Below are positions 2,165 through 63,500 of a DNA stretch of 64,000 bases, one piece after another. Position 1 is the stretch's first letter; each line of letters opens with the position of its first letter. Below the pieces are notes generated by a model. It was not told the DNA's origin, made no database searches, and saw only the letters and a list, made by a program, of their open reading frames with translations. The stretch lies in NCBI GenBank assembly GCA_902526005.1, contig CABZIW010000002.1, positions 124,001 through 188,000 of the forward strand, given 5' to 3'. Position numbers and translations under genes: made by a program. The DNA comes from an uncultured Pelagibacteraceae bacterium. GTDB taxonomy: Bacteria; Pseudomonadota; Alphaproteobacteria; Pelagibacterales; AG-422-B15.

Positions 2165-2683
2165 TTAGGCCTGTTTTGCGCTAAATTTTAGATGTTTATC
2201 AGCCATTAAATATAATACACAAGCGGCCATACCATAGAAAATGCTTGATAAAAATGTATTTTGTAAAAAAGGTAGAGCCATTATGTAGCAAGTAATTAGT
2301 CCATTCAAATCAGAAGCATACATTCCCGATCCATACCAAACAGCAAAATTTGATATTAAATAAAAAGATATTACACCTGTGCTAATTCCTATAAATGAAG
2401 TAGTTAGATTTAATTTTGAGTGAAAAAAAGTACCAATCAATATACACACGCAAATAGCAAAATAAATTATTGGCATACCAGCATGAAAACCTAAAAATAA
2501 ATCACTGATCAACATTGCTAAAATTGGAATACAATATGCCAATACTTTTTTATCAAACACGGCACCTGCAAAAAAAGCCATTCCTAATATTGGCGTGAAA
2601 TTAGGAGGATGAGGCAGTACCCTGCTTAATGCCAATACAAATACTATTGAAATACCAAAAATAATTTTTTTATTGATTTGCAT
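2165..2683 (-). CDS. DUF6580-type integral membrane protein, putative cobalamin-linked
   Basis: 172 aa, multiple hydrophobic helices, N-terminal SRVLPHPPNFTPILGMAFFAGAVF motif; same strand and directly downstream of a riboswitch-controlled TonB receptor. Confidence 0.7.
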   Translation of the reverse strand: MQINKKIIFGISIVFVLALSRVLPHPPNFTPILGMAFFAGAVFDKKVLAYCIPILAMLISDLFLGFHAGMPIIYFAICVCILIGTFFHSKLNLTTSFIGISTGVISFYLISNFAVWYGSGMYASDLNGLITCYIMALPFLQNTFLSSIFYGMAACVLYLMADKHLKFSAKQA

Positions 2684-2707: not shown

Positions 2708-4927
2708 TCAAAAAGTATATCCAAAATTAAAAAATAAATTTCTTTCTGGCAATGGATATACATTGGATAATCCGTAATGTGCGTCATTATGAAAAGTACT
2801 TGAAACTGCATAATCGTAAGCTGCTTCATCAAATAAATTGTTTACACCAAAATTTAGAGTGTAGTTTTTATCAACAAAACTAAAGTACGAATTTACAATA
2901 TAATAATTTGGTATCTGCGGCTCGATATTTTCTTCATCATTCGAAACATATTTTTTATCAAAATAATTCAATTCTAAATCAAGAGTTAAATTATTTCTCA
3001 CTTCAGTTTCATAAGCTAAACTAAATTGCATTGGTGAAATAAGTGGTACAGATTTACCTCTTAAATTTAATGTATCAACTCCGCTTAAGAGATTTTGCCA
3101 CGTATTAGGTGCAAATGATTCTCCATAAGTGCTTACTCCCGGCGTAAGTGTTCCAGAAGTAAACTCTGCAACAGTATAACTAAAAGATCCCCTTAATTTA
3201 TTAGATTGATCAAGACTATATCCAAAATCAATATCAAAGCCCTTACGCTCGATCGGATCTACATTTGTATTAATTGAATTTCTATATTGTATTTCATTTG
3301 TTGTATCGATCGAATAATAACTAACATCTAAATTAAGTTTATCACTGAAATATCTGACACCAATATCGTAACCCTCAGACTCCTGAGGTTTTAAATCAAA
3401 GGTTGTCTTTGGGCTCGAAGAGGCAACTCTCTCATCAATATTAGGAATTCGAAAAGATTCGGCATAACTTGTATACAAAGAAAGGTCTCTATTTAATTTT
3501 TTTTCAAAACCAACATTGAATGCCTCATTGCTCGTCGTATCATTATGAGTTGTCATATCATAAATGACTGGATAGAAAACTCCAAAATATTCTACATCTG
3601 CAAAACCTGGGGCTGTTTTATCAATGTCATCACGAGCTCCAAACATACTTTTTTCATCTCTATACCCTAATGAAATTGTAAGGTCACTTTCATTTACATA
3701 AGTGGTATTTTGAAAATATAATGATCTGACCTTAAGATCGGCAAAAATTTGTTGTCCCATTGCCTCATCTTCTTTTCTATGTTTGGTTGAGTCATAAAAA
3801 GAATGTGCAAAGTCATACCCTATGCTTAAGATATTAGAGTGAGTTTCATTAACTTGCTTTGTCTCATATCTGGAATTAAAATTATTGCCGTCTATTGTTG
3901 TGACTGTATATCTATCACCATTATCCGGAGTAGACGCTGTATTTGCATTTGCTCCAAAAAAAGATTTATCTGTTTTATCTCTGTAGCCAGCGTTAATAAA
4001 AATCTTATTCATATCATTTAAAGGAACAACAACACTGGCATTAATCGAGTCCATTTCAGTATTAGCATAATCTACTCGTCGCTCTGAATTACATGAGTCT
4101 CCATTTTCTAATGTGCTTCCACCTATGTTTCTTGCTGTCTTGCTGTCCTCGTAGCGGTTACAAATATGGTAGTTATAAACTTCACCGCCTTTAATTCTTC
4201 CACCTGGGAGATCTTTTTCATTTTCCATCGACATCACGTCTATATTTAAAGTTATATCTTCAACTTTATGACTCATATTTAATAAAATATTACTTTCATC
4301 AAAATCCGCCGCATCTCGGTAGTTACTGTTTGTAGTTTGAGATCCAAAAAGACCAACAGAACTCTGATCATTTATTTTAGTAAACAATGATATATCCGCA
4401 CTTTTATTGCCAAATGAACCAATTGAGGTTTTAAGAGAATTAATTATATCCTTATTGTTTGTAACGATGTTAATTGCACCTCCGACTGCACCTGAACCAT
4501 ACAATGTCGCGGCTGATCCTCCTCTTATTATCTCTATTCTTTCAATGCTCTCTGTAGGTATATGAGAGTTTATAGTTGACATATCAACGTCATTGAGGCG
4601 TCTACCATTAATTAGAATCAGAGTATTTGATTTCGCTGTTTCTCCAAAACCCCGCATATCTAATGTGGTGTATACTCCGTCATATCCAGCTGACGTTGTT
4701 CTCGTAGAAATACCTGAATAGCTTTCTATTATTTTTGGCAAGGATTTGTTTTGATATAATTTGAGTTCTTCTTTTGAAATTATAGTGATATTTGATCCAG
4801 CTAAGCCCGATGAAAGTCGAGTGTACTCTTCACTGCTAGGGTTAATAGGAATTTCCGGCGTTTCAGCACTTAGATTAGTAATAAAAGTTACAAATATAAT
4901 TATTGAGAATAAAAGTTTTTTGGTCAT
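2708..4927 (-). CDS. btuB: TonB-dependent outer membrane receptor, BtuB-like (vitamin B12)
   Basis: 739 aa; signal peptide, plug domain (IERIEIIRGGSAATLYGSGAVGGAINIVT), C-terminal beta-barrel ending in aromatic F; cobalamin riboswitch in the leader. Confidence 0.85.
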   Translation of the reverse strand: MTKKLLFSIIIFVTFITNLSAETPEIPINPSSEEYTRLSSGLAGSNITIISKEELKLYQNKSLPKIIESYSGISTRTTSAGYDGVYTTLDMRGFGETAKSNTLILINGRRLNDVDMSTINSHIPTESIERIEIIRGGSAATLYGSGAVGGAINIVTNNKDIINSLKTSIGSFGNKSADISLFTKINDQSSVGLFGSQTTNSNYRDAADFDESNILLNMSHKVEDITLNIDVMSMENEKDLPGGRIKGGEVYNYHICNRYEDSKTARNIGGSTLENGDSCNSERRVDYANTEMDSINASVVVPLNDMNKIFINAGYRDKTDKSFFGANANTASTPDNGDRYTVTTIDGNNFNSRYETKQVNETHSNILSIGYDFAHSFYDSTKHRKEDEAMGQQIFADLKVRSLYFQNTTYVNESDLTISLGYRDEKSMFGARDDIDKTAPGFADVEYFGVFYPVIYDMTTHNDTTSNEAFNVGFEKKLNRDLSLYTSYAESFRIPNIDERVASSSPKTTFDLKPQESEGYDIGVRYFSDKLNLDVSYYSIDTTNEIQYRNSINTNVDPIERKGFDIDFGYSLDQSNKLRGSFSYTVAEFTSGTLTPGVSTYGESFAPNTWQNLLSGVDTLNLRGKSVPLISPMQFSLAYETEVRNNLTLDLELNYFDKKYVSNDEENIEPQIPNYYIVNSYFSFVDKNYTLNFGVNNLFDEAAYDYAVSSTFHNDAHYGLSNVYPLPERNLFFNFGYTF

Positions 4928-4979: not shown

Positions 4980-5152
4980 GATCACCTGTGGATGACTATG
5001 TTTTGTTGGTAGGTCTCCTGACTTCTCCATCACTACTTAAGCACACCTTCCCGATTGATCAGTGGTATTTGTACTTAAATTCCAAAGTTACAGTTGCGGG
5101 TACAGTTAAGGCTTTAAACCTTATTCCCTGTTATTCACTTTACGTGAACCAA
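4980..5152 (-). promoter_or_regulatory. cobalamin riboswitch (boundaries approximate)
   Basis: Reverse strand contains AACAGGGAATAAGGT...ACCCGCAACTGTA...GGGAAGGTGTG...GTCAGGAGACCTACC, i.e. the conserved core plus B12 box (about 5008-5022), upstream of btuB. Confidence 0.92.
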
Positions 5153-5195
5153 CATTAAAACTATTGTATATTCGAAATTACAAAGCAAGAAAAAA

Positions 5196-59703: not shown

Positions 59704-60759
59704 TTAGCAATTTTCAAATGAAGATGCCATGTCCCCTATTAGATCAAAATAAAGATCTTTTCCTGGCTCCAATTCAGCTCCTAATGGATCTAAAACGGCA
59801 GACTTTATACCAGTATCACTTGCAATTGTTTCTGCAATACTTGGGTTAAATTGAGGCTCTGAAAATAAACAATTAACACTCTCATGCTCAATAACTTCTC
59901 TTATTTCTGCAAGTTGCTTCGCACCAGGCAACACCTCAGGATTTACAGTAAGAGCACCAATTACTTCAATACCAAATCTCTGCTCAAAATATTGATAGGC
60001 ATCATGAAACACAATGTATGTTGCATCACTATTTATTTTTGATCTTGTATTGTCTATTAACTGGTCAAGGTCATTAATAGCATTCGCAGCATTGGATGAA
60101 TAAATTGATTTATTGGCAGGATCAATTTCAGATAATTCTTCTGAAGCAATACTTACAATTGTTTTTGCGATTTTTGGATCTAGCCAAAAATGTATATCGT
60201 GCTCACCGTGATGGTGACCGTGATCATCATGTCCTTCGTGTTCATCATGATCGTCATGTCCGTCAGCGTGTTCTTCATGATCGTCGTGACCTTCGTGTTC
60301 ATCGTGTTCGTCGTGTTCGTCATGATCATCGTGTCCATCAGCATGATCTTCGTGTTCATCATGGTCATCGTGATCATCGTGATGATCATCAAATACATTT
60401 TTTTCTCTAAATTTTAGAAGCTCAATCTGATCGGAATCCATGAGTGTTACTCTTTTTGCACTTGCAGCAATTGAGTCAAGAGGTGTTTCCAAGAACGACT
60501 CTAAGTCTTCTCCGATCCAAAAAACGATATCTGCTTCTTGTAGCATTGTAGCGTGTGAGGGTTTCAATTGGAATGTGTGAGGAGAAGAGCTTCCGTCAAC
60601 AAGCAGATCAGGACGTCCAACACCATCCATAACATAACTTACAAGTGAATGTATTGGTTTTACTGATGTTACAACTTTTGGTTCAGCCTCAGCAGAAGAA
60701 ATAAAGAAGAATAAAGATAGAGATGATAGTAATAGGCCAAATTTATGTTGTAATTTCAT
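59704..60759 (-). CDS. znuA: zinc ABC transporter substrate-binding protein with His/Asp/Glu-rich loop
   Basis: VVTSVKPIHSLVSYVMDGVG, HDIHFWLDPKIAK; charged loop of DDHDEH-type repeats; ATG 60759 (MKLQHKFGLL signal peptide) preferred over the track's upstream start. Confidence 0.94.
   Translation of the reverse strand: MKLQHKFGLLLSSLSLFFFISSAEAEPKVVTSVKPIHSLVSYVMDGVGRPDLLVDGSSSPHTFQLKPSHATMLQEADIVFWIGEDLESFLETPLDSIAASAKRVTLMDSDQIELLKFREKNVFDDHHDDHDDHDEHEDHADGHDDHDEHDEHDEHEGHDDHEEHADGHDDHDEHEGHDDHGHHHGEHDIHFWLDPKIAKTIVSIASEELSEIDPANKSIYSSNAANAINDLDQLIDNTRSKINSDATYIVFHDAYQYFEQRFGIEVIGALTVNPEVLPGAKQLAEIREVIEHESVNCLFSEPQFNPSIAETIASDTGIKSAVLDPLGAELEPGKDLYFDLIGDMASSFENC
60180..60395 (-). repeat. 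degenerate tandem repeat encoding the His/Asp/Glu-rich loop of ZnuA
   Basis: Recurring catgatcatcgtgttc/cttcgtgttcatc-type units on the + strand. Confidence 0.85.
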
Positions 60760-60792
60760 AGTATAATTGCTTTCATTAATAATTGAGTATAG

Positions 60793-60807
60793 TGTTATAA
60801 TATAACA
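60793..60807. promoter_or_regulatory. putative Zur operator in znuA/znuC divergent promoter
   Basis: TGTTATA-A-TATAACA: perfect 7-bp inverted repeat with single central base, matching the core of the known Zur consensus. Confidence 0.82.
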
Positions 60808-60829
60808 AATTTTTAATAGCAAGTTTTTA

Positions 60830-61582
60830 ATGACCAATAATCCAAACGTCCTTGTAAAAATCTCTAACGCAGGGATTCAGAAGAGCGGCAAATGGCTTGT
60901 AAAGGATGTTAATTTAGAAATTCATAGGGGTAAAATAGTTACAATTATTGGTCCCAACGGCTCAGGAAAATCAACAACAGCAAAAATTGTCCTTGGTCTT
61001 CATAAAAAAATTGAGGGAAATGTTCAGACGTTCACTAAAAAGATCTCATATGTCCCCCAGAAAGTATCAATAGATTGGACTTTACCCATTAGGGTTTTGG
61101 ATTTTATGGTTTTAACAGAAGATTTAAAACCTCAAGAGATAAATGATGCTTTGAATTTAACTGGTGTTGATCATTTAATATCGAGAAATCTCAGAGACTT
61201 ATCTGGCGGTGAATTCCAAAGGGTACTACTTGCTAGAGCTATTGCAAAAAAGCCTGAACTTTTAGTTTTAGATGAACCGGTACAGGGAGTTGATTTTGCT
61301 GGTGAAGTAGCTTTGTATGGACTCATTAAGAAGATATCTGAAACATTAAATTGTGGTATTCTTCTGATTTCTCATGATTTACATGTAGTTATGTCGGCTA
61401 CTGATTATGTTGTTTGCCTAAATGGTCATGTTTGCTGTTCGGGTACACCTGTAGATGTGGCACGTGATAAACACTACAAAGAATTATTTGGTGAAAAATC
61501 ATCACAATTATTATCAATATACGAACATGACCACGACCATGTACACACTGCTGATGGAGACATAGTAAAAGAAAATGTTTGA
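60830..61582 (+). CDS. znuC: zinc ABC transporter ATP-binding protein
   Basis: IGPNGSGKSTTAKIVLGL, LSGGEFQRVLLARAI, His-rich C-terminus YEHDHDHVHTADGD. Confidence 0.94.
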   Translation: MTNNPNVLVKISNAGIQKSGKWLVKDVNLEIHRGKIVTIIGPNGSGKSTTAKIVLGLHKKIEGNVQTFTKKISYVPQKVSIDWTLPIRVLDFMVLTEDLKPQEINDALNLTGVDHLISRNLRDLSGGEFQRVLLARAIAKKPELLVLDEPVQGVDFAGEVALYGLIKKISETLNCGILLISHDLHVVMSATDYVVCLNGHVCCSGTPVDVARDKHYKELFGEKSSQLLSIYEHDHDHVHTADGDIVKENV

Positions 61583-62372
61583 TGATTTCTTATTCAGAGC
61601 TTTAATAGCAGGAATTGGAATTGCTCTTGTTACTGGTCCACTAGGATGCTTTGTTGTGTGGCGACGTTTATCTTTTTTTGGTGACACGTTAGCTCATTCA
61701 GCTTTGTTGGGAGTTTTGTTGTCTGTTGCATTTGATCTAAACATATCACTTACAATTTTTACTGTATCATCTTTAATTGCTCTTCTGTTATTAAGATTAC
61801 AGAAAACGACTAACTTACCAAGCGATGCTCTGTTAGGTTTGTTATCTCATTCCTCATTAGCAGTGGGATTGGTAATACTGGGATTTTTATCTTTTATTCG
61901 ATTCGATATTATGGGAGTTCTATTTGGAGATATACTCTCAGTAAATGTAAATGACTTGCTTGCTATTTGGATTGGTGGAGCCATTATTCTTTTAGTTTTA
62001 TGGTTTATTTGGAAACCGTTGTTTGCCTCAACAGTAAATTATGAGCTCGCTGAAGCCGAGGGCATGAATCCGGAGAGAGTAAATGCAATTTTCACGATTT
62101 TGCTAGCCGCACTTATTGCGATTTCAATAAAAATGGTTGGATTATTACTGATTACTGGAATGCTGATTATCCCTACAACAATGGCTCGTAATTTATCTAA
62201 TAATCCAAAACAGATGGTTATTTTATCAATTATTGGCGGTCTTTTATCAGTGTTTATTGGATTATATACTTCATTTGAAATTAACACGTCTTCGGGACCA
62301 ACAATAGTTGTAGTTGCGCTAATTTTATTTATCTTATCATTAATAGGAATCAAAAAAAGAAACTATGAATAA
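61575..62372 (+). CDS. znuB: zinc ABC transporter permease
   Basis: GPLGCFVVWRRLSFFGDTLAHSALLG, VGLLLITGMLIIPTTMAR. Confidence 0.94.
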   Translation: MFDDFLFRALIAGIGIALVTGPLGCFVVWRRLSFFGDTLAHSALLGVLLSVAFDLNISLTIFTVSSLIALLLLRLQKTTNLPSDALLGLLSHSSLAVGLVILGFLSFIRFDIMGVLFGDILSVNVNDLLAIWIGGAIILLVLWFIWKPLFASTVNYELAEAEGMNPERVNAIFTILLAALIAISIKMVGLLLITGMLIIPTTMARNLSNNPKQMVILSIIGGLLSVFIGLYTSFEINTSSGPTIVVVALILFILSLIGIKKRNYE

Positions 62373-62870: not shown

Positions 62871-63500
62871 ATGAAAAAAAGTATTTACTATTCACTATTA
62901 ATGTCTGCGATGATGTCAGTTGCAGCCGCAGAAGAAACAAGGCAAGTTGACAAGCATGAACATGGGGTCGGTGAGTTAAATATTGCTGTAGAAGGCAGTG
63001 CCATAAATCTAGAGTTTATGATACCTGGCGCAGATATTGTTGGGTTCGAGTATGAAGCAAAAAGTGATAGTGATATAGCATTGGTAAATACAGCTCTTTC
63101 TAAGTTTCAAGATTTTGAAAACATCTTTACTTTATCTAGCAGTGGAAATTGTAATTTAGTCGATGCTGAAATTGAAATAAATCAGGGAGATGATCATGAA
63201 GATGAGCATGATCATGAAGATGAGCACGATCATGAAGATGAGCATGAGCATGAAGATGAGCACGATCACGAGGATGAGCACGATCATGATGAACATGAAG
63301 AAGAAGCTCACAATGAGTTTGTTGCTCACTATTCATTTACTTGCGGTAATGTAAAAGAAATTGACAGAATAGATTTTCCATATTTTACTACTTTTCCTAA
63401 CTCTGGAGAGCTTGAAATACAATTTGTATCTGAAGTTGGATCCACGAGTTTTGAAGTGGAAGGAGATAAGCCTTTCATAGATTTAAAAGGGAAAATCTAA
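62871..63500 (+). CDS. ZrgA-like (DUF2796) periplasmic zinc uptake protein
   Basis: Signal peptide, HEHGVGELNIAVEGSAINLEFMIPGADIVGFEYEA, His-rich loop; Zur box upstream and ABC ATPase downstream. Confidence 0.87.
   Translation: MKKSIYYSLLMSAMMSVAAAEETRQVDKHEHGVGELNIAVEGSAINLEFMIPGADIVGFEYEAKSDSDIALVNTALSKFQDFENIFTLSSSGNCNLVDAEIEINQGDDHEDEHDHEDEHDHEDEHEHEDEHDHEDEHDHDEHEEEAHNEFVAHYSFTCGNVKEIDRIDFPYFTTFPNSGELEIQFVSEVGSTSFEVEGDKPFIDLKGKI
63187..63300 (+). repeat. 18-bp-period tandem repeat encoding HEDEHD
   Basis: gatcatgaagatgagcac units repeated about five to six times with synonymous and D/E-substituting variation. Confidence 0.88.

Follow-up and report, generated by a model that had tools for sequence, protein, structure and literature searches.

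A DUF6580 membrane protein in a cobalamin-riboswitch operon of Pelagibacterales: a candidate S-component-like B12 importer

Many Gram-negative B12 auxotrophs possess an outer-membrane receptor but no BtuCDF, and the route by which the vitamin then enters the cytoplasm is mostly unexplained (PMC6072759). The question is raised directly by a 64,000-nucleotide stretch of DNA from an uncultured Pelagibacteraceae bacterium, referred to here as the window, in which a small polytopic membrane protein of the family DUF6580 is encoded behind a TonB-dependent receptor and a B12 riboswitch. What does this protein do? The earlier note on this DNA proposed that it is a candidate component of B12 or corrinoid uptake in the inner membrane, a proposal that our genome comparisons support, with the transport step itself being predicted. 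We consider that DUF6580 is an S-component-like inner-membrane importer of B12 (corrinoids) that stands in for BtuCD and apparently works with no ECF module, and from the sequence comparisons described below we put the probability of this reading at about 80%. Our literature search found no paper that mentions DUF6580; BtuN, a predicted B12 transporter next to btuB that is named in annotations (PMC8954225, PMC7038796), may include DUF6580 proteins.

The operon and its host genome

The locus is arranged on the minus strand in the order riboswitch, TonB-dependent receptor, DUF6580 and acyl-CoA dehydrogenase. The operon leader at 4991-5168 is a full-length cobalamin riboswitch (RF00174; cmscan 108 bits, E 4.2e-26, model positions 1-189 of 189), and the 739-residue receptor (2708-4927, minus strand), which contains the Pfam Plug and TonB_dep_Rec domains, starts 63 nt after it. 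DUF6580 itself (2165-2683, minus strand) is a polytopic membrane protein of 172 residues with an ATG start and matches PF20221 over positions 2-157 of 162 with 145 bits (cut-off 27; E 2.6e-42); the acyl-CoA dehydrogenase follows at 899-2101, also on the minus strand. Receptor and DUF6580 are separated by 24 nt (2684-2707), in which direct reading of the sequence shows the purine-rich AGAGGAG, and a scan of this gap for terminator-like sites on the minus strand found none; the two genes are thus likely to be co-transcribed. Judged by its position behind the riboswitch, DUF6580 belongs to the cobalamin riboswitch regulon. The exact reading frame, the placement of the gene just behind the receptor on the same strand and the riboswitch leader before the receptor are all as the earlier note had described them. 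Its description of the receptor as BtuB-like is borne out in part: the TonB-dependent plug and barrel and the riboswitch are in place, but the matches to BtuB models are concentrated in the plug and score far under the curated cut-offs, and the label therefore rests mainly on the riboswitch.

The host genome (1.23 Mb, 92% complete) was found to contain one copy each of RF00174 and of the DUF6580 gene. It encodes both chains of methylmalonyl-CoA mutase, as do genomes throughout the host family, together with a PduO-type adenosyltransferase, which is present in most host-family genomes and in none of those of the sister family. No btuCDF had been seen in the window, and for btuC this now extends to the whole genome, where the sole match to FecCD, the permease family that includes BtuC, has only 30 bits (window about 61731-62327) and was rejected as BtuC, as it is a ZnuB-type ABC-3 permease (PF00950, 227 bits). 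FecCD matches in other Pelagibacterales were also set aside, being weak and of the same length and low score as the ZnuB of the window, and the host family is thus without BtuC. The zinc-type ABC system at 59704-62372 of the window, consisting of a binding protein, an ATPase and the ZnuB-like permease, has very His/Asp-rich stretches and is followed by another His-rich secreted protein at 62871-63500.

Distribution with riboswitches and BtuC-type permeases

We surveyed 78 genomes of the order Pelagibacterales, 41 from the host family (AG-422-B15, related to SAR11) and 37 from a sister family. Nearly all host-family genomes have DUF6580 and a riboswitch above the cut-off was detected in 35 of them; where one contig holds both, DUF6580 lies downstream on the riboswitch's strand at a distance of about 2-2.7 kb, which is so for nearly every riboswitch in this family. 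In one 98% complete genome of this family (G006), both B12-binding enzymes and PduO are present while DUF6580 and the riboswitch were not detected, which points to a gap in the assembly or to another importer. Neither riboswitch nor DUF6580 is found in 34 of the 37 sister-family genomes. The three that do have DUF6580 all carry a TonB receptor 38-52 bp upstream of it, with an AdoCbl-II riboswitch in two and the third locus lying at a contig end. In two complete genomes from a single genus of Pelagibacteraceae (SAR11; L083:6503-6595 and L084:6135-6226), an operon of AdoCbl-II riboswitch, TonB receptor and DUF6580 adjoins the rRNA operon and, given how rarely either element occurs in the sister family, seems to have been gained or kept locally.

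DUF6580 is patchy across the phylum (8 of 398 genomes, 6 of the 8 over the cut-off) and is found in 53 of 370 sampled gammaproteobacterial genomes (14%). Among 58 loci examined in other lineages, a cobalamin or AdoCbl-II riboswitch is present at 24, in every case upstream and on the same strand; for a given gene, we put the chance expectation in the region of 0.1% per genome. Further alpha- and gammaproteobacteria show this gene arrangement under two riboswitch classes, and often with a cobalamin adenosyltransferase. A survey of DUF6580 neighbourhoods, which the earlier note had suggested, has thus linked the family in unrelated lineages to cobalamin and AdoCbl-II riboswitches, to TonB/BtuB receptors and to cobalamin adenosyltransferases. 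In Gammaproteobacteria, a riboswitch is present at 19 of 51 loci, a TonB receptor at 22 and a PduO homologue at 17, with at least one of these at 23; the other 28 have no B12 marker within about 7.5 kb. Loci with and without B12 context are interspersed in the family tree, and the context thus does not mark one DUF6580 subfamily; such context is mostly absent from the most divergent clade, and some divergent members may carry another substrate. Plasmid searches returned no annotated relatives of DUF6580. One locus (L081) has the order riboswitch, BtuB, DUF6580, a diphthamide-synthase-type PP-loop protein, a BtuF-like binding protein and PduO, with metH next door. Its PP-loop and BtuF-like proteins (L081:6252-8422, the latter with no evident signal peptide) sit in a B12 operon without BtuCD, and a PP-loop gene of the diphthamide-synthase family also adjoins DUF6580 in two further loci (L131 and L135).

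The relationship to BtuC-type permeases was examined by searching FecCD in the same 370 gammaproteobacterial genomes at a threshold of E<=1e-30. FecCD is present in 1 of the 53 genomes with DUF6580 versus 209 of the 317 without, although the family also covers siderophore and heme permeases and the exclusivity with BtuC proper is thus indirect. Strong B12-binding enzymes (PF02310) occur in 32 of 53 DUF6580 genomes versus 241 of 317 others, so there is no enrichment in DUF6580 genomes as a whole; among the genomes that have them, FecCD is found in 1 of 32 with DUF6580 and 193 of 241 without (Fisher p 3e-18). Furthermore, nine families hold both states, with 15 genomes having DUF6580 and 15 having FecCD, never both in one genome and all with B12-binding enzymes, and although genomes are not independent, such splits within families answer in large part the concerns of relatedness and genome size. 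The exclusivity holds also where DUF6580 stands apart from B12 genes. In the 21 of 53 gammaproteobacterial DUF6580 genomes that have no strong PF02310 match, some may rely on B12 enzymes outside that model. Four genomes of about 1 Mb in this class (L155, L156, L167 and L169) have the AdoCbl-II riboswitch, the receptor and DUF6580, with no strong PF02310 enzyme.

Relationship to CbrT, BtuM and BtuCDF

A DUF6580 family profile built from 58 proteins was searched against 177,635 PDB sequences and gave CbrT (6fnp_A) as its sole sequence match (E 3.1e-6, over about 155 residues), with hhalign giving E 2.5e-6 and a probability of 89%; in the reverse direction, the CbrT sequence gives no PF20221 match. 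CbrT is a cobalamin-specific ECF S-component of Lactobacillus delbrueckii (PDB 6FNP), which takes cobalamin and cobinamide and supports no uptake without its ECF module (PMC5997447). The two share a PN..P motif after helix 1 and an S-(D/N)-..-LGF motif, and cbrT, too, is clustered with pduO (PMC5997447). On the other hand, their identity is about 18%, the invariant Asp61 of DUF6580 is Asn in CbrT, the EcfAA'T that CbrT needs is absent from most DUF6580 genomes, and DUF6580 is found in Gram-negatives, behind a TonB receptor. An AlphaFold2 model (mean pLDDT 82, seven helical segments), built from 28 close relatives only, finds FolT first in a fold search (TM 0.60, probability 1.00, E 0.1), with other S-components among the leading matches; these have E values of about 0.1, with no match at E <=0.001, and ECF S-components are thus the closest, if weak, counterpart of the predicted fold. 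The resemblance to S-components that had been suspected from protein size is thus seen with CbrT at the sequence level, while in the fold comparison S-components lead through matches that are individually weak.

The ECF module itself is largely missing. CbiQ/EcfT was found in none of the 12 Pelagibacterales tested, and among 65 DUF6580 genomes 60 have none and 4 have a match over the cut-off. No conserved ATPase neighbour was found: just about 10 of 61 loci have ABC genes close to DUF6580, and B12 operons as a rule contain none. By this absence, DUF6580 is not an ECF transporter.

BtuM of Thiobacillus denitrificans is likewise a small membrane protein that adjoins btuB in Gram-negatives lacking both BtuCDF and an ECF module (PMC6072759). 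DUF6580 occurs in the same type of context, adjacent to btuB with neither ECF module nor BtuCDF, the absence of the latter being judged by FecCD. However, the invariant cobalt-ligating Cys80 of BtuM has no counterpart in DUF6580, which is therefore not BtuM by that test: no cysteine is invariant among the 58 proteins, with C132 in 40 of 58 and a Cys at column 80 in 3 of 58. Nor does BtuM appear among the sequence matches of the DUF6580 profile or among the 50 best fold matches. Asp61 and Phe139 are invariant in the 58 proteins, and Arg21, Asn28, Phe107, Asn112, Trp116, Tyr122, Gly128, Leu129 and Pro138 are nearly so. The conserved residues reported for the BtuM pocket include H28 and D67 (PMC6072759), and H25 and D61 of DUF6580 lie at similar spacing, which we treat as a lead only. 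The histidine of the PHP motif, present in 51 of 58 proteins, was considered as a cobalt ligand replacing the BtuM cysteine and was rejected, since it is missing in riboswitch-linked members, among them L155, L156, L167 and L169, and is thus not generally required. Finally, BtuCDF/FecCD shares with DUF6580 the proposed step, B12 crossing the inner membrane, and the pairing with BtuB, but no sequence relation between them was found and the two are nearly mutually exclusive.

Proposed import route and competing explanations

We propose that the operon would be shut by its riboswitch as long as adenosylcobalamin is sufficient. Under B12 scarcity, corrinoid would cross the outer membrane by way of the TonB-dependent receptor. 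DUF6580, with its six to seven helices and its relationship to CbrT, would then bind the corrinoid and carry it into the cytoplasm, where the PduO-type adenosyltransferase would make coenzyme B12 for methylmalonyl-CoA mutase. As no ECF T-component is present, DUF6580 probably acts alone, as BtuM does, or with a partner. Transport may be energised through trapping by downstream binding or adenosylation, which is one possibility.

It is on this last step that a different explanation bears, namely that DUF6580 is an S-component which needs a partner, either an energising module that has escaped recognition or an ATPase that also serves a different ABC system. Its sequence relative CbrT does require an ECF module (PMC5997447) and a few carriers (4 of 65) have CbiQ/EcfT over the cut-off, but EcfT is absent from the 12 Pelagibacterales and from most other carriers, there is no conserved ATPase neighbour beyond the sporadic ABC genes, and BtuM and some BioY proteins transport without an ECF module (PMC6072759, PMC11109136), so that we regard a required partner as unlikely. 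We think it very improbable that the cargo is a precursor or part of B12 (cobalt, dimethylbenzimidazole or cobinamide only) instead of intact B12. Other S-component-type proteins carry metals or precursors, and cobalt and precursor transporters are also under riboswitch control, which lends this idea some general precedent; however, DUF6580 lies directly behind a TonB-dependent receptor, which is unneeded for a small base or ion, it replaces BtuC-type permeases, and CbrT, the closest relative of solved structure, has cobalamin and cobinamide as its specific substrates. Least plausible to us is an accessory or bystander role in the B12 operon, for example as a receptor helper, with another protein performing the inner-membrane step: linkage to B12 genes is indeed not absolute, as the 28 of 51 gammaproteobacterial loci away from them show, yet the near-exclusivity with FecCD persists even where DUF6580 stands apart, it is seen within nine families, and the protein has S-component kinship. 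We also looked for the two findings that the earlier note had named as speaking against its proposal, namely no association of DUF6580 with B12 regulation elsewhere or a complete btuCDF, and the proposal of a B12 uptake component stands.

We lean slightly towards the view that DUF6580 forms a family of its own among the B12 importers of Gram-negatives, derived from S-components, free of ECF, distinct from BtuM and without a cysteine ligand, that would explain much of the gap of BtuB without BtuCDF, including in SAR11-related ocean bacteria. It offers a small, single-gene candidate for B12 entry in 53 of 370 gammaproteobacterial genomes as well as in an abundant ocean lineage. If DUF6580 does work without an ECF module, it would be a further lone S-component-like transporter besides BtuM and some BioY proteins, and would bear on how S-components are energised. 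If true, the proposal would also make it easier to predict where in the sea bacteria rely on B12 in solution, and which bacteria these are.
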